37,119 bases of DNA. Source: Actinomycetota bacterium. Its GTDB lineage: Bacteria; Actinomycetota; Actinomycetes; S36-B12. The notes beneath the pieces were generated by a model that did no database searches, was not told the DNA's origin, and saw only the letters and a program-made list of their open reading frames with translations. Each line of letters starts with the position of its first letter. Position 1 is the first letter of the stretch. Shown here one piece after another: positions 1 to 18,058 of this stretch. Location: assembly GCA_030681835.1 (NCBI GenBank), contig JAUXRN010000106.1, positions 1-37,119 on the forward strand, read 5' to 3'. The position numbers were made by a program, and so were the translations under genes.

Positions 1-89
1 GCCTCGAGGTTCTCGCCAAGTCAAAAGCTGTCACCAGCACCGAAACGGAGGCCACCGAGGACATCACGCTGCAGGCGCTGAGCGCCTGA
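1..89 (+). CDS. C-terminal end of an unidentified protein (partial)
   Basis: An open frame enters from the left edge in frame 3 (codons from base 3) and stops with TGA at 87-89. Only 28 residues are visible, rich in Ala, Thr and Glu and ending ITLQALSA. I do not recognise the family. It does not resemble the part of a diiron monooxygenase alpha subunit that should precede the fragment starting near 139, so it is probably a different gene, or the flank of the deletion that truncated the alpha subunit. The codons look coding (no stop, high GC) but 28 residues are too few for more. Confidence 0.35.
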   Translation, partial: LEVLAKSKAVTSTETEATEDITLQALSA

Positions 90-138
90 ACCACGACGAC
101 GAAGGATCAGCCGTCGTACACCACCTCACAGGACTTGA

Positions 139-541
139 CCCTGGGAGGACAACTGGGGAGTCATGTGGGATGAGATCATCAAGAACGTCAACGATGATCG
201 GATTCAAGACACGCTCCCTGTGACTCTTCCGTCACTGTGCAACCTGACCCAGCTGCCAATCGGCTCCGCCATGTCGCGACACGATCTTGAGCCCCATCAA
301 CTCGTCTACAAGGAGCGCCTGTATAGCTTCGATTCGGAAATATCACAGTGGTGCTTCGAGCAGGATCCTGAGCGCTACGCGGGCCATCGGAGTTTCGTCG
401 ATCGGTTCATCGGAGGGGAGATTCTCCCCCCCCGATCTCGGAGGTGCGCTCGCGTACATGGGGCTGACTCCCGACGTAATGGGCGACGATGCCTACGGCT
501 ACGCCTGGGCGAAGGACTACGTAACTGCAGAAGCCGGCTGA
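139..541 (+). pseudogene. Soluble diiron monooxygenase alpha subunit, C-terminal remnant
   Basis: Only the last 130 or so residues of a roughly 500-residue TmoA/IsoA-type hydroxylase alpha subunit remain. Recognisable parts are WEDNWGVMWDEIIKNV, TLPVTLPSLCNL, WCFEQDPERYAGH and SFVDRFI in frame 1. After a run of eight Cs at 426-433 the homology continues in frame 2 as DLGGALAYMG and MGDDAYGYAW, to TGA at 539-541. Removing one C restores a single frame. Upstream homology ends at an in-frame TGA (136-138), and bases 1-135 do not encode the missing part. The two E...ExxH motifs that bind the diiron centre are therefore absent. An ATG at 163 with GGGGAG before it could start translation, but the product could not be an oxygenase. 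It lies 18 bp before the gamma subunit gene, the normal operon place. The truncation may be a real deletion or a misassembly, and the C-run shift may be a read error. Confidence 0.75.
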
Positions 542-559
542 GGGAAAGGGAGAGTTCAC

Positions 560-844
560 ATGGCACTATTTCCGATCACTGGCCGATTTGTCGGCGACTT
601 CATTCCGCACCTCGTCGCCGTGGATACGGATGACACGATGGCTGATGTAGCCGAAAAGGTGGCGACGCTAAGTGTCGGACATCGCGTCCCGATGCCCACC
701 GACCCGCCTGGATACGAAGTACTGCTCGACGATGTGGTCATCCCCGAATCGACGGTATTCGGCGCCGTCGTGGCCGAACACGACCTGATGCCACTGCAGT
801 GGTTCGACGTTCGCTTCCGCGAGCGGGCTTCCGTTGCTACCTGA
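560..844 (+). CDS. Monooxygenase hydroxylase gamma subunit (TmoB family)
   Basis: A 94-residue protein of the TmoB/IsoB family, the small gamma subunit that packs against the alpha-beta core of toluene-4-monooxygenase-like hydroxylases. The family pattern is clear: G-F-V-G-D-F near residue 12, VDTDDTMADVAEKVA, then VGHRVP and a C-terminal LMPLQWFDVRF segment. The start is the ATG at 560, preceded by a good GGGAGAG site. It follows the alpha remnant by 18 bp, and the Rieske gene starts inside its last codons, which indicates translational coupling. Length matches the family (about 85-95 residues). TmoB-like gamma plus a Rieske component places the enzyme with the four-component alkene/aromatic monooxygenases, not with methane- or propane-type enzymes. 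The substrate cannot be read from this subunit. Confidence 0.85.
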   Translation: MALFPITGRFVGDFIPHLVAVDTDDTMADVAEKVATLSVGHRVPMPTDPPGYEVLLDDVVIPESTVFGAVVAEHDLMPLQWFDVRFRERASVAT

Positions 845-1193
845 CTGCGGCGATGGCGCCGACTTCGTGGAAATCGTCGACGTGGACTCGCTGTGGGACG
901 GCGAGATGGAGTCGTTTGACTTGGACGACACTGAAGTTCTCATTCTCAAAGTATCGGGGGCGATTCGCGCCTACGACGGGATCTGTCCCCACCAGAGCTT
1001 CTCGCTCGTCGAAGGTCAACTTGAGGACGGCGTCCTTACTTGTCGAGCTCACGGCTGGGAGTTCGACGCTCTCACTGGAACGAGCATTAACCCGCGCGGA
1101 AATGCTCTCACGCGCTACGACCATCAGATCGAGGAAGGCATCATCCGCGTCCGACCGTGCATCCCAACACGATCCGCGGCAAAGGCACGTTGA
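834..1193 (+). CDS. Rieske-type ferredoxin of the monooxygenase (TmoC-like)
   Basis: A 119-residue Rieske [2Fe-2S] protein that would carry electrons from the reductase to the hydroxylase. The cluster ligands are complete: C51-P-H53 and C70-R-A-H73, separated by 16 residues as in T4MO TmoC. The chosen start is TTG at 834, which overlaps the gamma stop by 11 bases. No better in-frame ATG or GTG lies before the conserved fold, so the exact start is uncertain. The C-terminus after the cluster domain (PCIPTRSAAKAR) is short and basic. The gene sits in the canonical order gamma, ferredoxin, effector, beta, reductase. Confidence 0.87.
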   Translation: MLPDCGDGADFVEIVDVDSLWDGEMESFDLDDTEVLILKVSGAIRAYDGICPHQSFSLVEGQLEDGVLTCRAHGWEFDALTGTSINPRGNALTRYDHQIEEGIIRVRPCIPTRSAAKAR

Positions 1194-1248
1194 CTTGATG
1201 TTCACCAACCGCCGCAGCTTCAGCTGACGAGAGAGTCGAGAATCAGAA

Positions 1249-1578
1249 ATGACAGTCTTGGAGATGGACGCAACCTCGGAATCACTTGGCGATCTTGTTG
1301 GCCCGGTAATCCGCGCCGGCAATCTCGCCGAGGCGGTAATTGAAGCCGTCGACGCCGACAACCCGGACCGAGACGTCCTCGTGCTCGATCGTGATGATTA
1401 CGTGCGCATCCACATGGTTGGTGAGTGCCGTCTCACGCTCGCAAGCCTCGAGCGGAGCCTAGGTCAGTCGTACCAACTTGCTGCTCTTGAGATCGAGATG
1501 CCTGCCTTCAGGGGGCGGCTCAAGACCCGGACTGACGAATACGTGTGGTTCTACGATCAATCCTCCGCCGAAGCCTGA
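1249..1578 (+). CDS. Monooxygenase coupling/effector protein (MmoB/TmoD family)
   Basis: A 109-residue cofactorless regulatory protein of the MmoB/DmpM/TmoD family, which binds the hydroxylase and tunes oxygen activation and electron transfer. Family marks are VGPVIRAGNLAEAVIEA near residues 17-33, the D-D-Y-V-R-I-H segment near 49-55, and the C-terminal part around EMPAFRGRL. Length is typical (about 100-110). The ATG at 1249 is preceded by a weak purine stretch (GAGAATCAGAA). A 55-bp gap separates it from the Rieske gene, the largest gap inside the operon. The beta subunit gene starts 11 bp after its stop. Confidence 0.85.
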   Translation: MTVLEMDATSESLGDLVGPVIRAGNLAEAVIEAVDADNPDRDVLVLDRDDYVRIHMVGECRLTLASLERSLGQSYQLAALEIEMPAFRGRLKTRTDEYVWFYDQSSAEA

Positions 1579-1589
1579 AGGGCATACAA

Positions 1590-2618
1590 ATGAGTAGTCA
1601 AAAAGCGACCCCGCAGATCCGGACCCGCAGCCTCAAGACGTGGAGCGCGTTCGGCAACTTGGGGCGGCGTCCGACTGAGTATGAAATCACCGCGCATAAC
1701 ATGAATCATACGACCGGCGCAATCCCACTCGAATTGGGTCCGGATGTCAATGGCAACGCGTGGTTGCTCGAGCATCGCGACGCCACGAAACTGCGAGTCG
1801 CGGATTGGGATCTGTTCCGAGACCCCGCCGCGCTCACGTACGGGAAATACGTCGCTGAGCAGGACGACCAGGAGACGTACATCGAGTTGCTGCTCGAGCA
1901 GTTCGATCGCGACGGCGCCGACCGCACGCTGAGCGTGCAAGCCCTGGACATGCTGGGCCGCGCCCTAGCTCCGAGTCGCTATCTTGGGCACGGTCTTCAG
2001 ATGCTTTCGGCCTACCTTCAGCAGCTGGCATCTAGTAGCTATGTAGCCAACTGCGCCGCATTCCAGACTGCCGACCAACTTCGGCGTGTTCAGTTGAACG
2101 CTTACCGGACCACTCAACTGAATCGCAGCCATCCAGATCGCGGCTTTGCTACTTCCGAGAGGGGTCATTGGGAGAACGACACGAACTGGCAACCCATTCG
2201 GCGCGCCGTCGAACTGGCACTCGTCGAGTTCGACTGGGACCGTGCACTCGTCGCGACCAATCTCGTTGTCAAGCCGGTCGCCGATCTCCTCCTTATAGAC
2301 CTGCTAGGACGGCAACTCGCTGCGGCCGGAGACCATCTTGACGCGCTGATGCTCGACAATCTCTGGCGCGATTGTCGCCGTAGCCAGAGTTGGACCGCAG
2401 CACTAACCTCGTTCCTGCTTGAGTCGGATAGCAGCAACGGCCCAGTGCTTCAAGGGTATCTCGATGAGTTTGCGCCGCTGGGGTTCGCCATGATCGAGTC
2501 TGGCGTCCAGTTGCTCTCCGTCGACGGCGACCAGGAGTCCGCGCATCTCGCGGCTGGAGTCCGCGCGGACTGGGCGACGATTGTCGAGGCAGGCGGGTTG
2601 CGGCTAGGAACGGGATGA
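1590..2618 (+). CDS. Monooxygenase hydroxylase beta subunit (TmoE-like)
   Basis: A 342-residue hydroxylase beta subunit of the ferritin-like diiron monooxygenase superfamily. The family opening is seen (RTRSLKTWSAFGNLGRRPTEYE), with an R-D-P-A-A-L-T-Y-G-K-Y-V motif near residue 80 and the conserved L-G-H-G-L-Q-M segment near 135. Beta subunits do not bind the iron pair but form the scaffold of the (alpha-beta-gamma)2 hydroxylase. An ATG at 1590 with GAAGGG 7 bases before it is preferred to the upstream in-frame GTG at 1545, which would overlap the effector gene. Length is normal. The reductase start overlaps its stop (ATGA). Unlike alpha, this subunit looks intact, which makes the alpha truncation stand out. 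Confidence 0.86.
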   Translation: MSSQKATPQIRTRSLKTWSAFGNLGRRPTEYEITAHNMNHTTGAIPLELGPDVNGNAWLLEHRDATKLRVADWDLFRDPAALTYGKYVAEQDDQETYIELLLEQFDRDGADRTLSVQALDMLGRALAPSRYLGHGLQMLSAYLQQLASSSYVANCAAFQTADQLRRVQLNAYRTTQLNRSHPDRGFATSERGHWENDTNWQPIRRAVELALVEFDWDRALVATNLVVKPVADLLLIDLLGRQLAAAGDHLDALMLDNLWRDCRRSQSWTAALTSFLLESDSSNGPVLQGYLDEFAPLGFAMIESGVQLLSVDGDQESAHLAAGVRADWATIVEAGGLRLGTG

Positions 2619-3658
2619 ATGCGTTGACCAGCCCGCCTCGAGCCACCGTCTCTTTCCGTGGGATTGACACTCTCGTCGAATGCGCACCGGAAGAGACGAT
2701 CCTGCTCGCGGGACTTCGGCACGGCTTGGCGCTTACCTACGACTGCGCCAGCGGTGGTTGTGGCAGTTGCCGCGCGCAACTGACATACGGTTCGGTACGA
2801 CCCAGATGGGACGCCGCGACTGGACTCAGCGCCAGAGACCGCAGCAAGGGGAACCGCATTCTGATGTGTCAATCCCTACCCCAAGGCCATTGCGAAGTAC
2901 TCGCACCGCTCTCCGATGCGATCCCGGCACGCAGCGAGCCGAGACCCGCGAGGCTGCGCGGTCGACTGGCTCTGCGGGAGAGCTTGAGCGCCGACACCGC
3001 ACGATTCGTCTTCGACGTGTCAGAACCGGTTATCTACTTGCCAGGTCAGTACGTGCTGCTCGAGTTCCCTGATGGCGTCCGTCGCGCTTATTCAATGACG
3101 CGATCCTCTGGCGAAACGGCTGTGACATCTCTCGAACTGCTTGTACGAGCAAAGCCGAGTGGAGCAGCGACAGAATGGCTCTTCGAGCGCTTCGTTCCCG
3201 GATCAGACCTCATTATCGAGGGACCATACGGCAAGGCCTACGCGCAGTCGCCACGAGAGAGCCCCGTGCTATGTCTGGCTGGCGGAACAGGCTTGGCACC
3301 TATCCTCGCGATCGCCGAAGAATTGGCCGTCCATTCGCCTGAGAGGCGCATCGACCTGTACGTAGGATCCAGGCGCATGGCGGATATCGTCTTCGCGGAA
3401 CGCCTGACCTCGCTGGTCAACGCGGGTGTACGGGTAGTATCCGTCGTTGAGACAAATCCGGACTCGGCGCACCCGCTGCTTGGCCGGACCCGTACGGGAC
3501 TTGCGTTAGACCACCTCGCTGACGACTGGCCCGACCTCGCCCTTCATGACATCTACATGGCCGGGCCAGCACCCATGATCGACGCTGCACTGGTACGCCT
3601 GGTGAAGGACGGCACAGCAAGGGCCGACCGGATTTACTTCGACCGGTTCCTCGCGTAG
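2615..3658 (+). CDS. Monooxygenase NAD(P)H:ferredoxin reductase (TmoF-like)
   Basis: A 347-residue reductase feeding electrons to the Rieske ferredoxin. Order: N-terminal plant-type [2Fe-2S] domain with C44-x4-C49-x2-C52 and the fourth ligand C85 (ILMCQS); a FAD-binding beta barrel with the R-A-Y-S-M-T motif near residue 158; and an NAD(P)-binding domain opening with CLAGGTGLAPILAI near 220. Length matches TmoF/IsoF (about 340). It starts inside the beta stop (ATGA overlap at 2615-2618), so the two are translationally coupled. All cofactor residues seem intact. The aldehyde-dehydrogenase-like gene follows after 68 bp, probably on the same transcript. Confidence 0.9.
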   Translation: MNALTSPPRATVSFRGIDTLVECAPEETILLAGLRHGLALTYDCASGGCGSCRAQLTYGSVRPRWDAATGLSARDRSKGNRILMCQSLPQGHCEVLAPLSDAIPARSEPRPARLRGRLALRESLSADTARFVFDVSEPVIYLPGQYVLLEFPDGVRRAYSMTRSSGETAVTSLELLVRAKPSGAATEWLFERFVPGSDLIIEGPYGKAYAQSPRESPVLCLAGGTGLAPILAIAEELAVHSPERRIDLYVGSRRMADIVFAERLTSLVNAGVRVVSVVETNPDSAHPLLGRTRTGLALDHLADDWPDLALHDIYMAGPAPMIDAALVRLVKDGTARADRIYFDRFLA

Positions 3659-3726
3659 CGCATGGCCGCGCCCAACGACAGTATTTGTCGAGATCTCCAC
3701 GCCAACCACGACTCGAGGATGCACGG

Positions 3727-5115
3727 ATGAGCGTGCAACTCGAAACAACAGCGCATGGGATGCCTCTCGAGCATTACGGGCGCAACTTCATAGCCGGGAA
3801 ATGGCAATTCCCCAAGGCCCCATTTGAGTTCGAGATTCGCAACCCACTTGACAGCTCAATTAGCGGGGTCGTGCCCCTGTCGTCGCGATTCGACGTCGAA
3901 TCGGCCGTTATAGCGGGGAAGACTGCTCTGGCTGGTCCTTGGGCCAAGTCGACAGAGCGCGAGCTGCGCCTAAATGCGTTCCTTGACCGAGTGATGGCGT
4001 GTTCGCCTGAACTCGCGCACTTGCAGAGTGTCGAGTCGGGATTGTCGATGGATGACTCGTCTCGGTTACTAGCTGCAACTGTCGCCGCGGCGCGGGGACT
4101 GGTGCAATCGCCCGCAGCCGGCAGTCGCCAAACCATGCGGGGCGTCACCGGTCACATTCTGTCCTGGGGACTGGCCTTCACCGAGATGGTCACCAGCCTC
4201 CTACCGTCCCTAATTCGTGGTGACACCGTGGTTGTGAAGCCGTCACTGCGCGGTTCACTCACACCGGTCGCATTTTGCGTCCTCGCCGCCGACGCGGGCC
4301 TTCCTGGAGGAGTCATCAACCTTGTGCAGGGTACCGGGGTCGATGTTGGTGGCGAGTTGATCAGACGGCGTGACTTGTCTTCCCTGCATGTACGCGCCGG
4401 CGACCGAATCATCAGTCAGGCTCTAAGGCGAAGTGAACGCTCAGGAGTTGCGACGTACACGTTAAGCGCTGGAGGAAACGTCACAATCGTGGGGTCGGAC
4501 ACTGACATCGACGCCGCCCGACTCGCGGACGCGATCGCCACCGGCGTTCGCGTGCACAACGCCGGTGGTCCGTATGGGTTGCCCCTACTCGCTCTACACC
4601 GTGACCAGGTAGGTTCAGTACTTAACGAGTTGCTTCCCCTGCTCAGTCGTACAGTTCCGGCGCCGCTGCCAACCGAGCCGGTACGCCAGCGGGCGCGCGA
4701 TCGAGTTGACGCGCTGGTCGCTGTTGGCGCCGAGGTTCTGCTTGGTGGATCGAGCCTCCCTGACGATGTTGAGCATCGAATGGGGTGGCGGATGCGCCCA
4801 ACTGTCGTCTTGCTCGGGGAACCTGGATCACAGGCGGTAGCCGCTGAGCAAGCCAGCTCCCCGTTGGGGCCGGTGCTGAGCATCATCACGTGGAGCCATT
4901 GGCATGAGCTCACGGACGTATTCAATACGCAGCGGGCAAGTTCGGGAATCGCAACAGTTGCCCATTCCGTCGGCACGAACGCGACTGGGTTGCCACATGG
5001 TCTAGTCGAATCGGCGCTGTCGTCGCGCGACGCGTTCAATGCGGCGATCTTGCCCGCGGCATGGTGGGGCGGTGTTTGCGACAGTCCCGACACGTTAGAA
5101 CCGACGACTGACTAA
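3727..5115 (+). CDS. Aldehyde dehydrogenase superfamily protein lacking catalytic residues
   Basis: A 462-residue protein with the aldehyde dehydrogenase fold: FIAGKW near the start, RGDTVVVKPS with the usual NAD-contacting Lys, GLPGGVINLVQG, and a GPVLSIITW segment near the C-terminus. The active site is degenerate. Where the family has N-x-G-Q-x-C the sequence reads NAGGPY, with Tyr283 in the Cys position. Where it has LELGGK the sequence reads LSAGGN, with Ser247 for the general-base Glu. The FTGS motif is replaced by HVRAGD, and the Glu of EEIFGP is also gone. The frame is open throughout, so this is divergence, not frameshift. ATG at 3727 (GAGG upstream) is preferred to an upstream GTG at 3685. 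By position it could derive from a hydroxyisobutyraldehyde dehydrogenase, but with this site normal oxidation is doubtful. A structural or CoA-related role is possible. Confidence 0.7.
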   Translation: MSVQLETTAHGMPLEHYGRNFIAGKWQFPKAPFEFEIRNPLDSSISGVVPLSSRFDVESAVIAGKTALAGPWAKSTERELRLNAFLDRVMACSPELAHLQSVESGLSMDDSSRLLAATVAAARGLVQSPAAGSRQTMRGVTGHILSWGLAFTEMVTSLLPSLIRGDTVVVKPSLRGSLTPVAFCVLAADAGLPGGVINLVQGTGVDVGGELIRRRDLSSLHVRAGDRIISQALRRSERSGVATYTLSAGGNVTIVGSDTDIDAARLADAIATGVRVHNAGGPYGLPLLALHRDQVGSVLNELLPLLSRTVPAPLPTEPVRQRARDRVDALVAVGAEVLLGGSSLPDDVEHRMGWRMRPTVVLLGEPGSQAVAAEQASSPLGPVLSIITWSHWHELTDVFNTQRASSGIATVAHSVGTNATGLPHGLVESALSSRDAFNAAILPAAWWGGVCDSPDTLEPTTD

Positions 5116-5404: not shown

Positions 5405-6358
5405 TCAACTCCGCCGCCTTGCGATCTCCTCGGTCAGCTGAGGCACGACGCGCAGCAAGTCTCCAACGACGCCGAAGTCGGCGATGTCGAAGATTGGTGC
5501 ATCGGGATCCGTATTGACAGCCAAAATGGTCTTGGACGTTTGCATCCCGGCTCGATGTTGAATGGCGCCCGAAATTCCGTTGGCGATGTATAACTGCGGA
5601 GAGACGGTCTTGCCGGTCTGCCCTACCTGATTGGAGCGTGCATACCAGCCCAGATCTGTGACAGCGCGCGACGCTCCTACAGCGCCACCCAGCGCGTCCG
5701 CGAGGTCCTCGATCAGGGAGAAGTTGTCCGCGCTTCCAACGCCGCGACCACCCGAGACCACGACTGTGGCATCACTCAACTCGGGTCTACTTGACTGATC
5801 GTGGGGCGTTCGGTCGACGATCGTGGCGGCCATGGCCAACTCGCTAGTTTTCACGTCGATCTTGACGATGGTGGGCGTGGTTGGAGCGGCCACGGGGGTC
5901 GTCGAGTTTCGCTTTACCGTGATTATCGGAATTCCAGTCGCTACGTTTGCGCGCACGATGAAGGAGTCCGCGAAGACCGACTGCGTCGTGGTCAGGTCCG
6001 CAGCGACGTCGATCGCGTCGATGATGATGCCTGAGCCAAGTTTGACTGCCAACCGCCCACCAATTTCCTTACCCTCGGCGGACGAAGTGATCAGGATTGC
6101 AACTGGTGAAGACTGAACCGAAATGGTGACGAGAGCCTCAGCTGCTGGCAGCACGCGGTACTCATGAACGGCGGGGCGGTCGACAATGTAGATCTTGCCA
6201 GCTCCGTACTCAGCGAGAACTGATCGGGCAGACTCCGTAAGGTCACCTAGGTGGACCACCGCAGGCATTCCCATTCGACTGGCAAGGGTCAGCAACTCGG
6301 TAGTGCTCTTGCTAATCTGACCGCGTTCGTGTTCAGCAAGGACTAGAACCTCCCTCAT
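5405..6358 (-). CDS. etfA: Electron transfer flavoprotein alpha subunit
   Basis: A 317-residue EtfA, the FAD-carrying subunit of the ETF heterodimer, which takes electrons from acyl-CoA dehydrogenases and passes them to ETF:quinone oxidoreductase. The C-terminal FAD domain is clear: [12 protein letters not shown], then [20 protein letters not shown] and an IQHRAGM segment. Length is typical (about 310-320). The ATG at 6358 has GGGAGG upstream, and the gene lies 20 bp after etfB. It is last in the minus-strand series that begins with hcmB. The only acyl-CoA dehydrogenase nearby is mcd in the divergent operon, so this ETF probably serves methylsuccinyl-CoA oxidation (inference). The 289 bp to the convergent gene on its 3' side hold nothing I recognise. 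Confidence 0.92.
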
Positions 6359-6378
6359 ACCACGACCTCCCCTCCTGT

Positions 6379-7158
6379 TCAGATGAAACCGTTGGCCGCA
6401 AGGTAAGCGGCAGCCTGGATACCGCCGGAACCCTCATCGAGCACTTTGACCCCGGCGGCACGGGAGGGCGTCCTCGAAACGCTCGACATGACTGTCATTG
6501 CGCCTAAGAGACCAACTTGCGCCGGGTCGATGCCTAGCCCGGCTAGCGAGAGTCTCTCGATGTGCTTCTTCTTCGCGGCGAGGATTCCTTTGAACGAGGG
6601 ATACCGGGCCTCGCCGGTTCGGTCGGTGACGGAGACCACTGCTGGCAAGGTCGTCGTAATAGTTTCGGTTGCCTCGTCGTCATCACGACGAATCGTGACG
6701 TACTTGCCTTCCACCCGCAGCGCCGATGCGAACGACAGTAAAGGCAGACTGAGCCGCTCGGCAACCATGGCAGGGATGACCGAGAGGCCAGCATCAGTCG
6801 AAGCCATGCCCGTGAGTATGAGATCGGCGTCGATCCGGGCGAGCGCCGCAGCCAGCACCAAAGAGGTAGCCAGCGCGTCCGAGCCGGCCAAGCAGTCATC
6901 GACGATGTGCACCGCGTCGTCGGCCCCCATCGACAGCGCCCGGCTCAAAGCCGGTGCGGCATTATCGGGACCCATTGTCAGGACGGTAACTTGGCCCTCG
7001 CCGGCCGTCTCTACAAGTTGCAGGGCCTGCTCGATTGCGTACTCGTCAAGTTCGCATAGCAGGCCCTGGACGGCGTCCCGTTCGGTTGTGAAGATCGGAG
7101 TGAAGTGTCGATCTCCGGCTGCGTCGGGGACGTATTTCACCAAGACCGCAATTCTCAT
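6379..7158 (-). CDS. etfB: Electron transfer flavoprotein beta subunit
   Basis: A 259-residue EtfB, partner of EtfA, with the N-terminal opening MRIAVLVKYVPD and the family region LTMGPDNAAPALSRALSMGADDAVHI, which forms the AMP-binding part of ETF. The C-terminus (AAYLAANGFI) ends 20 bp before etfA. The ATG at 7158 has a GGAG 10-13 bases upstream. About 270 bp without a gene separate it from hcmA, so it may have its own promoter as well as readthrough. That gap contains a 10-bp palindrome (GCGACGTCGC, 7370-7379) but no convincing terminator. Confidence 0.92.
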   Translation of the reverse strand: MRIAVLVKYVPDAAGDRHFTPIFTTERDAVQGLLCELDEYAIEQALQLVETAGEGQVTVLTMGPDNAAPALSRALSMGADDAVHIVDDCLAGSDALATSLVLAAALARIDADLILTGMASTDAGLSVIPAMVAERLSLPLLSFASALRVEGKYVTIRRDDDEATETITTTLPAVVSVTDRTGEARYPSFKGILAAKKKHIERLSLAGLGIDPAQVGLLGAMTVMSSVSRTPSRAAGVKVLDEGSGGIQAAAYLAANGFI

Positions 7159-7428
7159 GTTTGGTCTCCGCTCTACGGGGTATGTGGCTGGGTGGTGCCT
7201 CCAGGCGATCTCTCTTCATTTCGCGAGTTCAGGCCCTTTCACGACCAACATTCCGGCGTCTCGGGGTTGTTGTTGGCCGTAAACATGGATGCTCGCCCGT
7301 ATTGCACAATGGTGGCCGTTTAGTACTTGTCGGCTCAGCCACCATCAGGGTTGGGTGAATCAGCGACTTGCGACGTCGCGAGGCGCGACGGGCGCTCGGT
7401 AGGCACCAAATTCGACATCGCCGTCTCA

Positions 7429-9141
7429 TCAGAAGACGGGAGTCTCGACGTATGAGCCGAAGACGTCACGTAGCGCACCCGTGATCTCTCCCATCGACAG
7501 ATGTGCCCGCACGGCCTCAATGGTGGCGGGCATGAGGTTTGCCTCCTTGTCCTGAGCCACGCGTAGGAGTGTGTCGAGTGCAGCGCTCGCTCTAACCGGA
7601 TCGCGACCAGCGCGGAGCTGCTGAAGTCGTGTGATTTGGCGCGACTCAGACTCTGGATCGAGCTGGTGGGTCTCGATCTTCTCACCAGGTCCGTCGTCGA
7701 TGTACTTGTTGACCCCGATGACTGGTCGTTCTCCACTGGCCTTTCGTCGCGCGAAGTCATAAGCGGTGTCTGAAATCTCCCGTTGGAAGTAGCCCTGGTC
7801 AATTGCTGCTTCAACACCTCCCATTTCTTCGACGTGTTGCATGATGTCTTCGATGCCGCGTTCAATCTCGTCCGTTAGGGCCTCGACATAGTACGAGCCA
7901 CCAAGTGGATCAATAACGTTCGTGACGTTGGTTTCATCGGCGATGATCTGCTGAGTCCGGAGTGCGATCTTCATCGCAGTCTCGCTCGGGATCGTGTACG
8001 CCTCGTCCAATCCGTTGGTATGGAGCGACTGCGCTCCGCCGAGAACTGCCGATAGTGCCTGCAAGGTCGTGCGGATAATGTTGTTCATGGGCTGCGGTTT
8101 GGTGAGGGTAGCCGCAGCGGTTTGGGCGTGGAAGCGCAGGCGCATCGAGTTTGGCATCTTCGCGCCGAAGCGCTCTTTCATCATCTTCGCGTAGTAGCGA
8201 CGGACCGCACGAAACTTGGCAGCCTCCTCGAAGAAGTCCGCCTGGCTGACGAAGAAGAACGACAGGCGAGATGCGAATTCGTCGACGTCAACGCCCGCCG
8301 CAACGACATCCTCGACATAGGCCCGCGTAATCGCCATCGTGAAGGCGACCTCCTGTAGTGCGCTCCCGCCGGCCTCGCTGATGTGGTACCCGCTGATGTT
8401 GACTGGGTTGTAGCGCGCCATATGTTCAGCGCAATAGATGATGCAGTCACGTACGATTCGCATGCTTGGCCTAACAGGAAAGATCCACTCCTTCTGAGCG
8501 ACGTATTCCTTTAGAATGTCGTTCTGAATCGTTCCGGAGAGTTTGTTGAGGTCGTATCCGCGGTCTTCCGCGACCGCCACGTACATCGCGAGCAGGATCC
8601 AGGCTGAGGGATTGATTGTCATTGACACTGAGATATTTTCCAGATCGATACCGTCGAAGAGTGCGGCCATATCCGGAAGCGTGTCGATGGCGACGCCCTC
8701 GCGTCCCACCTCCCCGAGGCTCATTGCGTCGTCGCTGTCGAGGCCCATCAACGTGGGCATATCGAAGTCGACCGATAATCCGGTCTGGCCCTGCTCAATC
8801 AGATATCGAAATCTCATGTTCGTTTCTTCCGCTTGACCGAAGCCGGCGATCTGACGCATCGTCCAGTTTCGGCCGCGATACATGGTCGGATAGGGCCCCC
8901 GCGTGTAGGGGTAACGGCCGGGAAGTCCGATCTCATGCCAGTTGCTCGGCAAGTGTTCGGGCGTGTAGACACGGTTGACGGGAAGGCCGCTACCGGTGAC
9001 GTAGGCATCTTTGGACTCCGGCGCCCGCACCGTGAAATCGGCCAGCTCGTTCAACTCCCAGTCCGCTCGCTCCTTGCACACCGCATGCACGAGGGCGTCG
9101 CTCCGAAGCAGTAGACCATCTCGTTCGTTAGGCCCGGTCAT
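7429..9141 (-). CDS. hcmA: 2-hydroxyisobutyryl-CoA mutase, large (substrate-binding) subunit
   Basis: A 570-residue B12-dependent acyl-CoA mutase large subunit without its own cobalamin domain; that is supplied by hcmB. The TIM barrel is complete (YPTMYRGRNWTMRQIAGFG, GQTGLSVDFDMPTLMG, SVSMTINPSAW, INISGYHISEAG). Methylmalonyl-CoA mutase has Tyr in RQYAGF, but here it is Ile98. In the barrel segment GLSVAFD the Ala is replaced by Asp125. These match Ile90 and Asp117 of Aquincola tertiaricarbonis HcmA (same 27-residue spacing), which define 2-hydroxyisobutyryl-CoA mutase. The expected reaction is reversible conversion of 2-hydroxyisobutyryl-CoA and 3-hydroxybutyryl-CoA. It lies 43 bp after its GTPase chaperone gene, and GGAGAT precedes the ATG. 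Length matches HcmA (about 560). Confidence 0.88.
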   Translation of the reverse strand: MTGPNERDGLLLRSDALVHAVCKERADWELNELADFTVRAPESKDAYVTGSGLPVNRVYTPEHLPSNWHEIGLPGRYPYTRGPYPTMYRGRNWTMRQIAGFGQAEETNMRFRYLIEQGQTGLSVDFDMPTLMGLDSDDAMSLGEVGREGVAIDTLPDMAALFDGIDLENISVSMTINPSAWILLAMYVAVAEDRGYDLNKLSGTIQNDILKEYVAQKEWIFPVRPSMRIVRDCIIYCAEHMARYNPVNISGYHISEAGGSALQEVAFTMAITRAYVEDVVAAGVDVDEFASRLSFFFVSQADFFEEAAKFRAVRRYYAKMMKERFGAKMPNSMRLRFHAQTAAATLTKPQPMNNIIRTTLQALSAVLGGAQSLHTNGLDEAYTIPSETAMKIALRTQQIIADETNVTNVIDPLGGSYYVEALTDEIERGIEDIMQHVEEMGGVEAAIDQGYFQREISDTAYDFARRKASGERPVIGVNKYIDDGPGEKIETHQLDPESESRQITRLQQLRAGRDPVRASAALDTLLRVAQDKEANLMPATIEAVRAHLSMGEITGALRDVFGSYVETPVF

Positions 9142-9184
9142 GGCAGACGATCTCCTCTGTTGCTGTAGTTGGAATCGTGTATCG

Positions 9185-10159
9185 CTAGCAGTTTGCGATG
9201 GGTCCGGCGATCAACTTCCTGGCCGCGCTCACCGGATCGGATTGCCGTGACACGACCGTTTCCACGGCCGCATCGAACGCCGTATCTCCGGTACGGAAGC
9301 GGCCGAGTACAAGCTCTTCGGCCGCCCACCGAATTCGCGTTGCTGCGTTTCGACGATGGCTGTCGGTGCGTGCGCCATTCCCTGCCAGCCACGCGGCATG
9401 GTCGTCGAATATTCGCATGAGGTCGTCGATCCCTTCATGACTTGACGCGACCGTCTGCTGAATCGGCACCTTCCACTGGCCCTCACGATGTGGGGAATGG
9501 CGCACGACGTCTCGAATCTCGGCGACGGTCCGATCGGCACCTGGACGATCCGACTTGTTGACAACGTGAATGTCCGCAATTTCGAGTAATCCGGCCTTGA
9601 TCGCCTGGACCTCGTCCCCCAAGCCCGGGACGCTGACGACAGCGATCGTCTGCGCCACGCTAATGACGTCGACCTCGGCCTGCCCGACGCCGACGGTCTC
9701 CAGAATCACAACGTCCATACCAGCTGCATCGAGGACGCTTACGCCATCGAGCACGGCCCGAGACAGACCGCCGAGGGCCCCGCGCGTGGCCATCGAACGG
9801 ATGAACACGTCGGGGTCACTCCCGAGATCGGACATTCGAATCCGATCTCCCAGGATCGCGCCGCCTGTGATCACGCTCGAAGGATCAACCGCGAGGATTC
9901 CCAGGCTGCGCCCCGTCCGTCGGTAGGCGGCGGCCAGCCCAGCAACCAACGTGCTCTTTCCGCTGCCTGCCGGGCCGGTGACCCCGACGACATGGGCACG
10001 GCCAGTCGCGTGATGGAGTGCCGCCAAGAGATCGTTGACGGCTGGAGTCCTGCGCTCGACCTGTGTCAGCATACGGGCAATCGCGCCGTGTTCGCCGTCG
10101 AGCACGCGTGCAACTATGTCTGAGTCGTCCGCCATGTACGCGGACGGCGCAAGGGACAT
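9185..10159 (-). CDS. meaB: MeaB/ArgK-type GTPase, B12 mutase chaperone (MeaH-like)
   Basis: A G3E-type P-loop GTPase of the MeaB/ArgK family. These proteins guard B12 mutases, gate adenosylcobalamin loading and eject inactivated cofactor. Motifs: Walker A GPAGSGKST, the switch region DPSS and DRIRM, a Walker B/switch II region ETVGVGQAEVDV, and the guanine-specificity motif NKSD. From the ATG at 10159 it has 324 residues, the family length. This start lies 8 bp after the ligase stop. A GTG at 10210 (341 residues) and an ATG at 10135 are alternatives, and none has a strong ribosome site. Its place between hcl and hcmA points to the hydroxyisobutyryl-CoA mutase as its client, as with MeaH of A. 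tertiaricarbonis. Confidence 0.88.
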   Translation of the reverse strand: MSLAPSAYMADDSDIVARVLDGEHGAIARMLTQVERRTPAVNDLLAALHHATGRAHVVGVTGPAGSGKSTLVAGLAAAYRRTGRSLGILAVDPSSVITGGAILGDRIRMSDLGSDPDVFIRSMATRGALGGLSRAVLDGVSVLDAAGMDVVILETVGVGQAEVDVISVAQTIAVVSVPGLGDEVQAIKAGLLEIADIHVVNKSDRPGADRTVAEIRDVVRHSPHREGQWKVPIQQTVASSHEGIDDLMRIFDDHAAWLAGNGARTDSHRRNAATRIRWAAEELVLGRFRTGDTAFDAAVETVVSRQSDPVSAARKLIAGPIANC

Positions 10160-10167
10160 CGGCCGGT

Positions 10168-11622
10168 TCAAGGTGAGACCTTCGGCATCGTCAAATCGCC
10201 TGCGGTCCACAGCTCTCGGCCGTCGATAACACGCCTCGCCTTGAATTCAGTACGCTCGAACGTGCCCTTCGGCTTCGGAACGACTTGGGCACCGACTCCT
10301 AGGACGGTACGCAGCCGTTCGGAAAGATCGGCACACCATGTGTCGACAGAGGAACCTGTGTCCGCGATGTTCTCGTGCTCGACCTCGACCACGAGAACAT
10401 CCATTGTTTGGTCCCGGCTTATCACGATCCGATGTTCACCGCCGTAGGCCTGATCGCCCATGACGACGTCGTCAATCGCGCTGGGGTAGATGTTCTCGCC
10501 TCGCACAACGAACATGTCGTCGATGCGCCCGTAGATGCCACGAGGCAAGAACGGGTACGTGCGACCACGTTCGGCCGATGGGGCCTCCCAATCTGTGAGG
10601 TCGTTCGAGAGCAATCGGATCATCGGCTGCGACGTGCGTTCCATCGTCGTATATATGGGTGTGCCTTGTGATCCGTACGGCACCCGGCGCAGCGTTTGTG
10701 GATCGCAGACCTCGGTGTACACGAGATCCTGCCAGCACATCAGGCCCGGAGCGTCGGCTGACGATCCGAGATGCATCCAAGGGCTGACCTCGGCCATGCT
10801 TCCTGAGTCGTAGACCGCAGCACCGAACGCAGAACTGATCCTCGTGCGGATCGACGGGATACTCGCCCCCGGCTCGCCTGAGAAGAATAACAGGCGTAGT
10901 CCGAGGTCCCGTGGGTCGATTCCAGCCTCCGTGGCGACCTCGGCCAGACGTAGTGCATACGACGGCGTCCCGTAGAAGACATCGACCTTCATCTGCTGCA
11001 TCCACCGGACGGTTCTGAGTGTTTGACCTGCGACACCGGCACCGAAGGGAAACACTGTGGCGCCCAAGCGCTCCGCGCCGAGATATGCGCCCCACGACCC
11101 CCAGTAGAGGGCGAGTGGGGAGCCGATGATTACCGTGTCTTGCGGCCGAATTCCCATGCCCCACATCACGCGTGCGTGCGCGTTGGCGATGGAGTTCCAG
11201 TCTCGCCTGTTCACTCCAAAAGTGGTCGGCCGGCCGGTCGTCCCCGACGTCCCATTGATATGTTTTACCTCGGATGGCGCCACGCATAGATAACTGCCAA
11301 ATGGCTCGTTCATTGCCTGATCAGCGCGTAACTCTTCTTTTCGAACTACGGGAACTTGCTCGAACGCCTCCCAACTGGTGATGTCCTGAGGTTCGAGTCC
11401 GGCGTCGCGCCACTTGCTCTTATAGAACTCCGATCGATCCCAGGCGTAAGACATAACCTGCTGTACGCGTCTCAACAAGAGCTCATCGCGTTCGTCAGCA
11501 TCCATAGTTTCGCGAACCGGGAACCAGTGCACCTGGTCATCAACCGGCCGGTACCCGTCGTCGTATTTGGGTGGCCAAGTCCAATCCTCAAGGGCTTTGG
11601 ACTCCGAGACGAGCGATGCCAT
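10168..11622 (-). CDS. hcl: 2-hydroxyisobutyrate-CoA ligase (PaaK-like AMP-forming)
   Basis: A 484-residue adenylate-forming CoA ligase of the phenylacetate-CoA ligase (PaaK) type. The AMP-binding loop is NGTSGTTGRPTTF near residues 123-135. A D-S-G-S-M-A-E segment and the hinge-region GRIDDMFVVRGENIYPSAI follow. The C-terminal lid ends with KGTFERTEFKARRV, with a possible catalytic Lys. PaaK-like ligases that activate 2-hydroxyisobutyrate occur beside hcmAB in known degraders, so ATP-dependent formation of 2-hydroxyisobutyryl-CoA is the likely reaction. The specificity comes from context, not from a residue I can read. Its ATG overlaps the hcmB stop by one base (TAATG), a sign of tight coupling. 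Confidence 0.82.
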   Translation of the reverse strand: MASLVSESKALEDWTWPPKYDDGYRPVDDQVHWFPVRETMDADERDELLLRRVQQVMSYAWDRSEFYKSKWRDAGLEPQDITSWEAFEQVPVVRKEELRADQAMNEPFGSYLCVAPSEVKHINGTSGTTGRPTTFGVNRRDWNSIANAHARVMWGMGIRPQDTVIIGSPLALYWGSWGAYLGAERLGATVFPFGAGVAGQTLRTVRWMQQMKVDVFYGTPSYALRLAEVATEAGIDPRDLGLRLLFFSGEPGASIPSIRTRISSAFGAAVYDSGSMAEVSPWMHLGSSADAPGLMCWQDLVYTEVCDPQTLRRVPYGSQGTPIYTTMERTSQPMIRLLSNDLTDWEAPSAERGRTYPFLPRGIYGRIDDMFVVRGENIYPSAIDDVVMGDQAYGGEHRIVISRDQTMDVLVVEVEHENIADTGSSVDTWCADLSERLRTVLGVGAQVVPKPKGTFERTEFKARRVIDGRELWTAGDLTMPKVSP

Positions 11623-12050
11623 TATCGTGATCTCACTGGAACCATGCGGAGCACCGTCTCGACGATCGACTCTGGCGGCGTGTCTTGCCCTAGCACTGCA
11701 GCGACACCCAGACGATGCAACTCCTCCACGTCCTCATCAGGCATCACGCCACCCGCCAGAAGAGTGAATCTGTGAGGCTCGGGCAGAGCGTCTAAGAGAT
11801 CGAAGATGCGTCGAAAGATCGACATGTGCGCGCCCGAGAGCAGACTCACACCGAGCACGTCAACGTCCTCTTGGACGGCCGCTGCGACGACCTGGTCAGG
11901 ACTGCGATGCAACCCTGTGTAAATGACCTCCATACCTGCATCCCTGAGCGTTCTGGCGACGACTTTCACCCCTCGGTCATGTCCGTCCAGCCCGATTTTT
12001 GCCAGCATCACGCGGATGGGGATTTCCCGATTGCTGACCGTTTGACTCAT
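11622..12050 (-). CDS. hcmB: 2-hydroxyisobutyryl-CoA mutase, small (cobalamin-binding) subunit
   Basis: A 142-residue cobalamin-binding subunit. The base-off/His-on motif is D22-G-H24-D-R-G27, with His24 as the lower axial cobalt ligand. It is followed by the SLLSGAH segment and LLAGGVMP, which complete the Rossmann-like B12 fold. HcmB of A. tertiaricarbonis is about 136 residues, so the length fits. The ATG at 12050 with AAGGAA upstream is chosen over a frame start at 12119, which would add 23 residues and run through the operator. It is first in the minus-strand operon, 29 bp downstream of a palindromic operator. It would dimerise with HcmA, as in other split mutases. Confidence 0.9.
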   Translation of the reverse strand: MSQTVSNREIPIRVMLAKIGLDGHDRGVKVVARTLRDAGMEVIYTGLHRSPDQVVAAAVQEDVDVLGVSLLSGAHMSIFRRIFDLLDALPEPHRFTLLAGGVMPDEDVEELHRLGVAAVLGQDTPPESIVETVLRMVPVRSR

Positions 12051-12500
12051 GGAGATTCCTTCGCAGTGGGCCGACAATGCTATGGTCAGACCATAGTATG
12101 CACAGTCCAATGAGCGCAAGAAGACGCGGGCGTGGTTCAGCCCTTAGAGCCGGATGGGCGGTTGCATGGGCACATGCTTGGTCGCTGCTCGAGTTATCCG
12201 CGACCCAGTGGTGTTCGCAGCAACCGCTTCGCCAATGGGACAGCGAAGACGACGAGTGATTGTGCTACGGATGCGTCGGCGATCAACGATGCCCAGGGCG
12301 CACCTGCGACGTCGGTCGTATACCGGCACATCGTCTGCTTCGTGCTCCGAAGTCATCTTGGTGTATGCCGCCAATCGAATTCGGGTGGCCGCGACTCGTC
12401 CGGTTTTCGGTAGGTGGAACGAACTCGGACCTACATTCATCGACGCTGGGTTTATTAGCTGAGGTCGAGTCCCTCGGATTACCCTTCTGAAGGGGGAAGT
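12051..12500. other. Divergent intergenic region between hcm and ccr operons
   Basis: A 450-bp spacer between two divergent operons with no convincing gene; small open frames on both strands resemble nothing known. It holds the FadR-type palindrome near hcmB. Beside ccr it holds a short inverted repeat CCCTTC-T-GAAGGG (12482-12494), whose right arm runs into the purine-rich AGGGGGAA before the ccr GTG. A structure there could affect ccr translation. The ccr promoter must lie here, but no clear -35/-10 pair stands out. Confidence 0.5.
12080..12096. promoter_or_regulatory. FadR/GntR-type operator upstream of hcmB
   Basis: A perfect inverted repeat CTATGGTC-A-GACCATAG. Its core TGGTCAGACCA fits the TNGTNNNACNA consensus of FadR-subfamily GntR regulators. 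It lies 29 bp upstream of the hcmB ATG, and a -10-like TACTAT on the minus strand overlaps one arm, so binding would probably repress the hcm operon. No GntR gene is present in the window. The regulator family is inferred from the half-site only. Confidence 0.55.
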
Positions 12501-13835
12501 GTGCAGGCGTTACTGGATGCCATTCTTGCGGGTGCTTCGGCGGAGACCTTTGCGGCGCTTGACGTTCCTGATACGTATCGGGCGGTGACGATCCACCGGG
12601 ATGAGCAGACCATGTTCGATGGGTTGGCCTCGCACCAGAAGGATCCGCGTCGGTCGATCCATGTGGAGGAGGTGCCGACGCCGCAGTTGGCTGCTGGCGA
12701 GGCGTTGATCGCGGTGATGGCGTCGAGCATCAACTACAACACGGTGTGGTCGAGCATCTTCGAGCCGGTGTCCACGTTCGGGTTCCTGGATCGGTATGCC
12801 AGGAGCACCCCCGATGCCCGGCGTCATGATCTGCCCTATCACGTGATCGGCTCGGATGCGTCCGGGGTGGTGCTCCGCACCGGACCTGGGGTCAGTGTGT
12901 GGCAGCCCGGTGATCGGGTGGTGGCGCACTGCCTGAGCGTGGATCTGGAGTCCCCGTTCGGGCACAACGACACGATGCTCGATCCCGAGCAGCGGATCTG
13001 GGGCTTCGAGACCAACTTTGGTGGCCTGGCCGAGCTGGCCATCGTCAAGGCGAACCAGTTGATGCCCAAACCCGAGCACCTGACCTGGGAGGAGGCCGCC
13101 GCCCCTGGCCTGGTGAACTCCACCGCCTACCGGCAACTGGTCTCCCGCAACGGCGCCGACATGAAGCAGGGCGACGTCGTGCTGATCTGGGGCGCGTCCG
13201 GCGGCCTGGGCTCGTATGCGACGCAGTACGCGGTCAACGGAGGCGCGATCCCGGTGTGCGTCGTGAGCTCACCGCAGAAGGCCGACCTGTGTCGGGCGAT
13301 GGGCGCCGAGCACATCATCGACCGCTCCGCCGAGGGCTACCAGTTCTGGTCCGACGAGCACACCCAGGACCCCCGCGAATGGCAGCGGCTGGGCAAGAAG
13401 ATCCGCCAGCTCACCGGCGGCGACGACCCCGACATCGTCTTCGAGCACCCGGGCCGCGAGACCTTCGGCGCGTCGGTCTACGTCACCCGCAAGGGCGGCA
13501 CCATCGTCACCTGCGCCTCCACCAGCGGCTACATGCACGAGTACGACAACCGGTACCTGTGGATGAGCCTCAAGCGGATCATCGGCAGCCACTTCGCGAA
13601 CTACCGCGAGGCCTACGAGGCCAACCGGCTCATCGCCCGCGGCATGATCCACCCCACCGTCTCCCAAACCTTCCCCCTCGATGACGCCGGCGAAGCCGCC
13701 TACCAGGTCCACCGGAACGCCCACCAGGGCAAAGTCGCTGTCCTCGCCCTCGCCCCCGAACCCGGACTCGGCATCACCCAACCCGACCTCCGAAACCAGC
13801 ACATCATCCAGATCAACCGATTCCGGCATCGCTGA
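12501..13835 (+). CDS. ccr: Crotonyl-CoA carboxylase/reductase
   Basis: A 444-residue Ccr of the medium-chain dehydrogenase/reductase family. It reductively carboxylates crotonyl-CoA with CO2 and NADPH to ethylmalonyl-CoA, the key step of the ethylmalonyl-CoA pathway. Family stretches are nearly canonical: [58 protein letters not shown] (NADPH loop) and [10 protein letters not shown]. The CO2-pocket residues known from Kitasatospora Ccr (Asn81, Phe170, Glu171, His365) appear here as Asn80, Phe169, Glu170 and His364. The GTG at 12501 is preceded by AGGGGGAA at very short spacing. The stop overlaps the ecm ATG by one base (TGATG). Third positions are G/T-rich at the 5' end and C-rich at the 3' end. 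Confidence 0.96.
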
Positions 13836-15812
13836 TGCGAGACAAGCCGTGGGTCATGCGGACCTATGCGGGGCATTCGTCCGCGCGTGAGTCGAATGCC
13901 CTGTATCGACGGAAGATCGAGAAGGGACAGACGGGTCTGTCGATCGCCTTCGATCTCCCGACGCAGACGGGCTACGACCCTGATCACCCCCTTGCTGTCG
14001 GCGAGGTCGGGAAAGTCGGAGTGCCCGTGACGTGTGTCCAAGACATGAGGGCTCTCCTCGACGGGATCCCCCTTGACCGCATGAATACATCGATGACGAT
14101 CAACGCGACAGCGATGTGGCTCCTCGCGTTGTACGTAACCGTTGCTGACGAGCGAGGCGTCGACCGAGCCATGCTGGCAGGGACGACGCAAAACGACATC
14201 ATCAAGGAATATCTCTCGCGCGGCACCTACGCGTTCCCTCCCGGACCGTCCATGCGATTGGCGACCGACACGATTGCCTGGAGTGTCTCGAACACGCCTC
14301 GATGGAATCCGATCAACATTTGCTCCTATCACTTACAAGAGGCCGGTGCGACGCCCGTGCAGGAGGTCGCATTCGCGTTGTCGACGGCGATCGCGGTACT
14401 CGACGCGGTGCGCGACTCCGGCCACGTGCCCCGTGAACAGATCGCCGATGTCGTCGTCCGAATTTCGTTCTTCGTCAACGCGGGCATCCGTTTCGTCGGC
14501 GAGGTCTGCAAGATGCGGGCGTTCGCTCGGATGCGGAACGAGATCACGCGCGACCGCTACGGCGCTACTGACGAGAAGGCCCGCCGCTTCCGATACGGGG
14601 TGCAAGTCAACTCGCTCGGGCTCACAGAAGCACAGCCGGAGAACAACGTGCAGCGCATAGTCCTGGAGATGCTCGGTGTCACGCTGTCCAAGTCGTCCCG
14701 CGCCCGAGCCGTCCAACTACCGGCATGGAACGAAGCATTGGGGCTACCCAGGCCGTGGGACCAGCAGTCGAGCCTGCGCATGCAGCAGGTGCTAGCGCTG
14801 GAGTCGGACCTGCTCGACTATGAGGACATCTTCGATGGGTCGCACGTGATCGAGGCGACAGTGGACCGCCTTGTCTCGCAAGCGAGCGACGAGATGGCGC
14901 TGATCGAGGCATTGGGTGGCACTGTCGCGGCCGTCGAGTCCGGCTACCTCAAGGGCGAACTCGTCACATCGCACACTGATCGGCGCCGCCGGATCGAGTC
15001 GGGCGACGAGGTCGTCGTCGGGGTGAATCAGTTCACAACGACGGAGCCCAGTCCTTTGACGTCCAACCTCGACACGGCGATCCTCAGAGTCGAGCCCGCG
15101 GTCGAGGAGCGCGCAATCGCTGCTCTCCACGCATGGCGCGCGCAGCGTGACCCGCAGGCCGTCGGAGCGGCACTCGCCTGTCTGCGCGTGGATGCGCACC
15201 GCGACGCGAATCTCATGGATGCCTCGCTGGAATGTGCACGTGCCGGAGTTACGACCGGGGAATGGTCGGAAACGCTGCGTGAGTGCTTCGGGGACTTTCG
15301 AGCACCGACCGGTGTCACCGGAACTGCAGGTTCGGGTGACCGACGTGGGCTCACGGCACTCCGCGCCTCGGTTTCCGCGGCTGAGGAGGAGATTGGGCAT
15401 CCTCCTCGACTGCTTGTCGCCAAGCCGGGACTTGACGGGCACTCGAACGGCGCCGAACAAGTAGTTGTGGCCGCTCGTGACGCGGGATTCGAGGTCATCT
15501 ACCAAGGCATCCGACTGACACCGCAGGAGATCGTCTCCGCGGCAGTCCAGGAGGACGTCGACTGCATTGGGCTGTCGATCCTGTCCGGGTCGCACCTGCA
15601 GATCGTTCCCCCGGATCGTAAATGCGCTGCGCGAAGCCGGCCTGATCAACGTCCCGGTGCTGCTTGGCGGAATTGTTCCCGAGCAGGACGCGCGATTGCT
15701 TGCCGACGCGGGTATCGATGCAGTGTTCACGGCCAAGGACTACGACCTCATCGCCGTCATGACCGAGGTCCTTGCGGTGATCCGAAGGAGCAGGCACCTT
15801 TCGCCTGCTTGA
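13835..15812 (+). CDS. ecm: Ethylmalonyl-CoA mutase, interrupted by a +1 C frameshift
   Basis: A B12-dependent mutase converting (2R)-ethylmalonyl-CoA to (2S)-methylsuccinyl-CoA. The barrel domain carries the Ecm form [10 protein letters not shown] (His after YAG, where methylmalonyl-CoA mutase has Phe), then [26 protein letters not shown] and [17 protein letters not shown]. The C-terminal cobalamin domain has D534-G-H536-S-N-G and GLSILSGSH. At a run of five Cs (15608-15612) the frame shifts. With four Cs it reads on as [25 protein letters not shown] and FTAKDYDL, to the TGA at 15810-15812, giving a normal protein of about 658 residues. As read, the shifted frame runs without a stop into mcl and gives a false 990-codon fusion. 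Either a homopolymer read error or a recent mutation; the rest is well conserved. It overlaps ccr by one base. Confidence 0.88.
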
Positions 15813-15847
15813 TGCTGCCCACCACCGCCCACGAACAGGAGTCGTGC

Positions 15848-16807: not shown

Positions 16808-16808
16808 G

Positions 16809-18020: not shown

Positions 18021-18058
18021 CCGACGGATAGTGCCACCCCAAAAATGAATGGAGCGAT

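Follow-up and report, generated by a model that had tools for sequence, protein, structure and literature searches.

The window analysed here, a stretch of 37,119 nucleotides from an actinobacterial contig, carries behind an alkene monooxygenase operon a protein of the aldehyde dehydrogenase (ALDH) fold, P0001, which very probably is not an aldehyde dehydrogenase, judging from the catalytic residues missing in its sequence. A non-catalytic accessory function at the monooxygenase step is its probable role, and on balance we favour the fuller reading that P0001 represents IbcG/AldH2 in an alkene monooxygenase operon of the isobutylene type, with such an accessory role; any one named mechanism is considerably more doubtful. 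The gene is the following:

3727..5115 (+): P0001, ALDH-fold protein without catalytic residues, 462 aa, homologue of IbcG, isoprene AldH2 and Xaut_4863 (Pfam PF00171, positional test, tree, AlphaFold2 model)

Translation of 3727-5115 gives a stop-free frame of 462 residues, in agreement with the intact frame of 462 codons claimed in the original prediction; the ATG at 3727 agrees with the N-termini of the homologues, and an in-frame TTG lies upstream at 3685. The sole Pfam family in the protein is one stretch of Aldedh (PF00171; 109.8 bits against a cutoff of 23, E 1.6e-31, residues 34-403). An AlphaFold2 model, for which the window protein was combined with ordinary ALDHs from viral contigs as alignment depth, is of middling quality (mean pLDDT 74.7, pTM 0.76), and its last 37 residues (426-462) are of low confidence and not trusted. 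The PDB structures nearest to this model are all ALDHs (Foldseek, best E 7.7e-30), and it superposes on 1bi9 with a Z of 31.9 over 398 residues and an rmsd of 6.0 (VIA-align). P0001 is thus a full-length ALDH fold, as had been proposed from the letters. Ordinary enzymes such as PnpE (4go3), AldC (6x9l) and betaine aldehyde dehydrogenases share with it the fold, about 20-25% identity, the Lys of VVxKPS and the glycine-rich adenosine-binding stretch, but they keep the catalytic Cys, Glu and Asn, of which P0001 has none. Directly 3' of P0001 (5146-5517, +) lies a 123-aa open frame without Pfam match, which overlaps the opposite-strand ETF alpha gene and may not be a gene; Rfam gave no match within the window.

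Alignment of five family members with 36 ordinary ALDHs from fetched loci placed the active-site positions of P0001 as follows:

4570..4572 (+): Pro282, in the column of catalytic Cys302, motif AGGPYG; C in 36/36 canonical ALDHs, P/G/P/P/P in the family
4462..4464 (+): Leu246, in the column of general-base Glu268, motif TLSAGG; E in 35/36 canonical ALDHs, L/H/L/L/L in the family
4165..4170 (+): Trp147-Gly148, Trp168 kept and oxyanion Asn169 replaced by Gly (LSWG versus PWN); N in 36/36 canonical ALDHs, G/S/G/G/G in the family
4237..4248 (+): Lys171-Leu174 (KPSL), Lys192 kept and Glu195 replaced by Leu; K in 36/36 canonical ALDHs and 5/5 family members, Leu in 5/5 at the Glu195 column

Catalytic Cys, Glu and Asn are each present in 0/5 family members, and with all three gone ALDH chemistry should be impossible. 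The original prediction was right in that the Cys and the Glu are lost; the residues that it put in their place, Tyr283 and Ser247, are each off by one, the aligned positions being Pro282 and Leu246, one earlier. The oxyanion Asn (now Gly148) is a further loss that it had not listed. Loss of the FTGS motif (VRAG in P0001) and retention of the Lys of VVVKPS (Lys171) were likewise borne out, while the predicted loss of the EEIFGP Glu holds for P0001 (Ser378) and the Py2 member but not for the three closest relatives, in which this Glu is present. The Glu399 equivalent is not kept in P0001, and the PFGGxKxSG end motif is absent. A Cys supplied to the active site by another part of the chain, named beforehand as an observation that would overturn the idea, was sought in the five-member alignment: no Cys column is common to any two members and the Rhodococcus-type member lacks Cys altogether, so that a relocated nucleophile is excluded by sequence and this candidate was rejected. 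The adenosine half of the NAD site is retained in P0001 (K171 and the glycines G202/G204/G208).

P0001 is the last gene of an operon with the order alpha-gamma-ferredoxin-coupling-beta-reductase-P0001, the order of the components being that of XAMO:

1..540 (+): hydroxylase alpha subunit, C-terminal part, cut by the contig end (whole gene, L016 427-1911)
559..842 (+): monooxygenase gamma subunit, 54-59% identity to the gamma of G555, ELW1 and Py2
833..1192 (+): Rieske ferredoxin, CPH...CRAHGWEFD motif (L016 ORF 2204-2563)
1248..1577 (+): small ORF, presumed coupling protein, located between the ferredoxin and beta genes, gene order as in XAMO (L016 ORF 2619-2948)
1589..2618 (+): hydroxylase beta subunit, likely ATG 1589 (open frame from 1545), Phenol_Hydrox E 5e-57, 57-60% to isobutylene/isoprene-type beta
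2615..3658 (+): monooxygenase reductase (2Fe-2S, FAD and NAD domains by Pfam), 46-53% identity to the ELW1 and isoprene-type reductases

L016 is a near-identical contig of a second genome (99.9% over 15 kb) that completes the alpha gene cut by the window, and the window coordinates of the ferredoxin and coupling ORFs are carried over from its ORFs (a shift of 1371 is given for the coupling ORF). The window alpha subunit shows 69-70% identity to XamoA of Xanthobacter Py2 and 79-85% to isobutylene/isoprene-type alpha subunits. The reductase lies directly upstream of P0001, at a gap of 68 bases.

This position directly after the monooxygenase reductase is shared by the family in 6/6 places: the window, its G002 copy, G555, an ELW1-type plasmid contig, G914 and Py2 pXAUT01. 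The sample is small, the six known places including the near-identical G002 copy and thus holding five distinct members. In the window, L020, L047, L048 and L054 the neighbouring reductase is that of a group 2 diiron monooxygenase. L020 carries the member of Py2 plasmid pXAUT01, Xaut_4863; L048, a contig of 221,756 bp, has the gene order of plasmid pELW1-1, and its member is taken as IbcG; L047/L055, from the Mycobacterium draft G555, hold an isoprene-type cluster in which isoGHIJ adjoins the family member; and L054, from G914, a large-genome relative of the same family, carries gshB and a CoA-disulfide reductase gene, as isoprene clusters typically do. Like P0001, IbcG of isobutylene-degrading Mycolicibacterium directly follows a group 2 reductase (ELW1 plasmid copy, 44% identical), and AldH2 of Rhodococcus AD45 (SZ00_06085) has the same position (isoprene-cluster copies, from genomes other than AD45, 45% identical); the IbcG and isoprene-cluster copies read show the Cys/Glu/Asn losses of P0001. 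Xaut_4863 of Xanthobacter autotrophicus Py2 also stands after the alkene monooxygenase operon, in the same clade and without Cys/Glu/Asn, but differs from P0001 in being 31% identical and 387 aa long, without the C-terminal region, and in keeping the GS of FTGS. Its gene (L020 11956-13119) ends about 75 residues before its relatives, and similarity searches found no continuation in the following 300 bases.

Against the 36 canonical ALDHs the family is monophyletic (100/100 support, 200/200 bootstrap trees), and from this single clade the catalytic loss would most simply have happened once, in the common ancestor of the family. Whether the changes are conserved in homologues from other alkene clusters, a point raised by the original prediction, can be answered: Cys, Glu and Asn are missing in 5/5 members, which come from independent assemblies including two plasmids, and this is not chance. 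The frames are intact in five divergent genomes at 30-61% identity, and the differences are concentrated at codon position 3 (58-68% versus 23-37% at position 2). Pairwise identities within the family correlate with those of the monooxygenase components (Spearman 0.90 for the reductase, 0.92 for the beta subunit); among mycobacterial genomes with a related alpha subunit (n = 42), a family member occurs in 2/2 with an alpha at least 80% identical and in 0/40 of the others. Judged by these patterns, the family is under purifying selection and travels with the monooxygenase. The suggestion of a pseudoenzyme is thus well supported, with three conserved catalytic losses in every member, one operon type and purifying selection.

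The family is rare in the sampled sets. Profile searches at E 1e-50 found only the window's own member in 386 genomes of its phylum, one member in 301 genomes of a Mycobacteriaceae-like family and, in 28 genomes of the genus concerned, one member from that same genome; 398 genomes of the phylum of a gammaproteobacterial genome gave none, in a set without positive control that shows little. A plasmid search with Xaut_4863 gave no new members, only ordinary ALDHs at <60% identity, and in viral contigs only ordinary ALDHs matched. A wide distribution of the family was rejected on these profile, plasmid and viral searches.

The genes themselves are already known and have names. In PMC13188929, IbcG is an additional aldehyde dehydrogenase after the monooxygenase in ELW1 and other isobutylene strains, with a gene in the same position in AD45 and Py2; a role in oxidising products of 2-methyl-2-propen-1-ol is suggested for it, and the genes of ibc cluster 1, ibcG included, are all induced on isobutylene (about 18-fold transcript, log2 about 4.2). 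According to PMC4676930, aldh2 of Rhodococcus AD45 follows isoF within 22 isoprene-induced genes, its function is left open, and the cluster is strongly induced by epoxyisoprene as well as isoprene. IbcG and AldH2 differ from P0001 in label, being published as additional or putative aldehyde dehydrogenases. Missing catalytic residues are not mentioned in the text searched of PMC13188929 and PMC4676930; a published report of catalytic loss in the family was not found in the open literature searched, and a literature search with the locus tag Xaut_4863 gave nothing. A plasmid-cured strain with isoABCDEF without aldh2 has an active isoprene monooxygenase (PMC9004368), and isoprene is also oxidised by Variovorax WS11, which has no aldH2 (PMC7143210). 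Gene naming varies: aldH1 (499 aa, a canonical ALDH) is placed directly after isoF in PMC12917321, while in PMC6849523, L047 and L054 the canonical aldh1 precedes isoA and it is the dead AldH2 that follows isoF; aldH1 and AldH2 may have been mixed up.

The window holds further pathway genes:

5405..12119 (-): ETF alpha/beta, HcmA-type mutase, MeaB GTPase, AMP-forming CoA ligase and HcmB-type B12 protein, a 2-hydroxyisobutyryl-CoA mutase set (Pfam/NCBIfam)

Another contig of the source genome (G000:C85, L144 6703-11534, -) encodes homologues of IbcJ (65%), IbcH (71%) and IbcK (epoxide hydrolase, 76%) of ELW1. The IbcJ homologue has the full catalytic triad (row L002 in the ALDH alignment), a predicted working ALDH that is available for the aldehyde step in the source genome. 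Taken together, the monooxygenase operon, the mutase set and the IbcJ/IbcH/IbcK homologues indicate an organism with the gene set for isobutylene use. The pathway so predicted from the window and L144 belongs to an actinobacterial lineage outside the Mycobacteriaceae; only Mycobacteriaceae are known to use isobutylene, as stated in PMC13188929. The wording “this pathway” in the original prediction has to be broadened: the family is not confined to the hcm (2-hydroxyisobutyrate) pathway and stands behind alkene-oxidising group 2 diiron monooxygenases of isobutylene, isoprene and propylene pathways alike.

Further along, the window carries the following genes:

12501-13835: crotonyl-CoA carboxylase/reductase (TIGR01751, 598 bits), adjoining the mutase-lyase fusion
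13835-16807 (+): 990-aa fusion of an acyl-CoA mutase (methylmalonyl/ethylmalonyl type), a B12-binding domain and an HpcH/HpaI-type C-C lyase
16809-18020: acyl-CoA dehydrogenase, adjoining the fusion region
18059-18931: 3-hydroxyacyl-CoA dehydrogenase, in the same region
19301-20089 (-): integrase-like gene, within the stretch matching G002:C27
20539-24063: type ISP restriction-modification gene, within the same matching stretch

The genes at 12501-18931 resemble an ethylmalonyl-CoA pathway in compact form, in which the mutase-lyase fusion is unusual. Over almost its entire length the window is 99.7-99.9% identical to G002:C27, a contig whose genome belongs to the same genus but is classed as a different species; the match may reflect recent transfer or a mobile element present in both.

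Several other explanations of P0001 have to be weighed. Annotation, fold and the literature proposal for IbcG (PMC13188929) would make it an active aldehyde dehydrogenase, which is very improbable with Cys, Glu and Asn in 0/5 members and no relocated Cys. The chance of a decaying gene or an assembly artefact is next to negligible: the rarity of the family and the Py2 copy shortened to 387 aa could be so read, and against them stand the intact divergent frames, the surplus of changes at third codon positions and the recurrence of the same replacements across independent assemblies, two plasmid sequences included, on which pseudogene and assembly error were rejected. It is unlikely, if less so, that P0001 is still an enzyme whose remodelled ALDH pocket carries out other chemistry, such as a reaction of epoxides or of an adduct with CoA or glutathione, with Ser146, Arg175, Arg238 and Thr245 as candidate residues. 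The pocket changes are conserved and not random, and 22 columns invariant in the family are absent or rare (<10%) in canonical ALDHs, polar ones near the motif positions included; several of the invariant residues are, however, hydrophobic and need not be catalytic, the downstream chemistry is different in all three pathways, and we know of no unassigned step common to them.

ALDHs assemble as dimers or tetramers, and the ELW1, isoprene-type and window genomes each encode a canonical ALDH besides the family member, so that P0001 might be an inactive subunit that oligomerises with the pathway's working ALDH (IbcJ or AldH1). This is quite improbable: no further ALDH is annotated in the Py2 stretch L020, the C-terminal part is missing from Xaut_4863, P0001 has lost the end motif and its C-terminus is poorly modelled, and the true ALDH of the source genome lies on another contig, beside IbcH/IbcK and not P0001. 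Slightly less improbable is a sensor or regulator that would respond to bound epoxide, alkene or NADH by adjusting expression or activity; the retained adenosine-side residues would suit it, as would the response of the AD45 cluster to epoxyisoprene (PMC4676930), but Pfam finds no DNA-binding or signalling domain in the 462 aa, and published clusters have separate regulators of their own such as marR and lysR (PMC12917321 and PMC4676930).

A non-catalytic accessory of the monooxygenase step accords better with where the family occurs. Downstream, the pathways run through glutathione (isoGHIJ, L055), an epoxide hydrolase (L048, with a homologue in L144) or coenzyme M (Py2); because these routes differ and alkene epoxidation is the only common step, a shared role should concern epoxidation, and a family common to three pathways and absent with more distant monooxygenases should serve that step. 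Since isoABCDEF alone works and WS11 lacks aldH2, the reaction as such can proceed without this protein, which is not an obligatory subunit; a role in assembly, stability or regulation is therefore more likely. In the accessory reading, an ALDH-fold ancestor would have lost aldehyde chemistry and then been retained in the service of alkene epoxidation, and P0001 would act through binding rather than catalysis. With the Lys and the glycine-rich stretch kept and the nicotinamide/catalytic half lost, nucleotide binding is possibly retained, and the adenosine half of the NAD site may hold NAD(H) or CoA. P0001 may also contact a monooxygenase component, and this contact might help the oxygenase to be assembled, stabilised or regulated, or shield it from its own reactive epoxide. 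Only tentatively do we propose, in this specific form, that the operons of alkene-oxidising group 2 diiron monooxygenases encode a seventh partner so far overlooked, the dead ALDH, which would keep its nucleotide site and dock onto the reductase or the oxygenase so as to tune, protect or assemble the enzyme.

ALDH16 proteins have two ALDH domains per chain, and P0001 has a single Aldedh stretch in its 462 aa. To our knowledge, dead bacterial ALDHs retained in a catabolic operon have been little described. Dead ALDHs as such are already known from human ALDH16A1, which like P0001 is an evolutionarily kept ALDH fold without catalytic triad and is thought to act via protein contacts, but whose loss took place in another lineage, P0001 belonging to a bacterial catabolic operon (PMC10650815).

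Within the open literature searched, the catalytic death of the whole family appears to be new, as does the divergent member that the window adds outside Mycobacteriaceae and Xanthobacter. The published “aldehyde dehydrogenase” job of the family is probably wrong, and catalytic loss across it would correct models of the propylene, isoprene and isobutylene pathways that give or guess an aldehyde oxidation here, recasting an induced, conserved gene as the question of what service a dead ALDH renders to an alkene monooxygenase. Isoprene and propylene oxidation are relevant to climate chemistry and biocatalysis, and alkene monooxygenases are hard to express, so that an accessory factor, if true, would be of practical use. 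Should the reading as a seventh operon partner hold, P0001 and its relatives would represent a new kind of diiron monooxygenase accessory protein.
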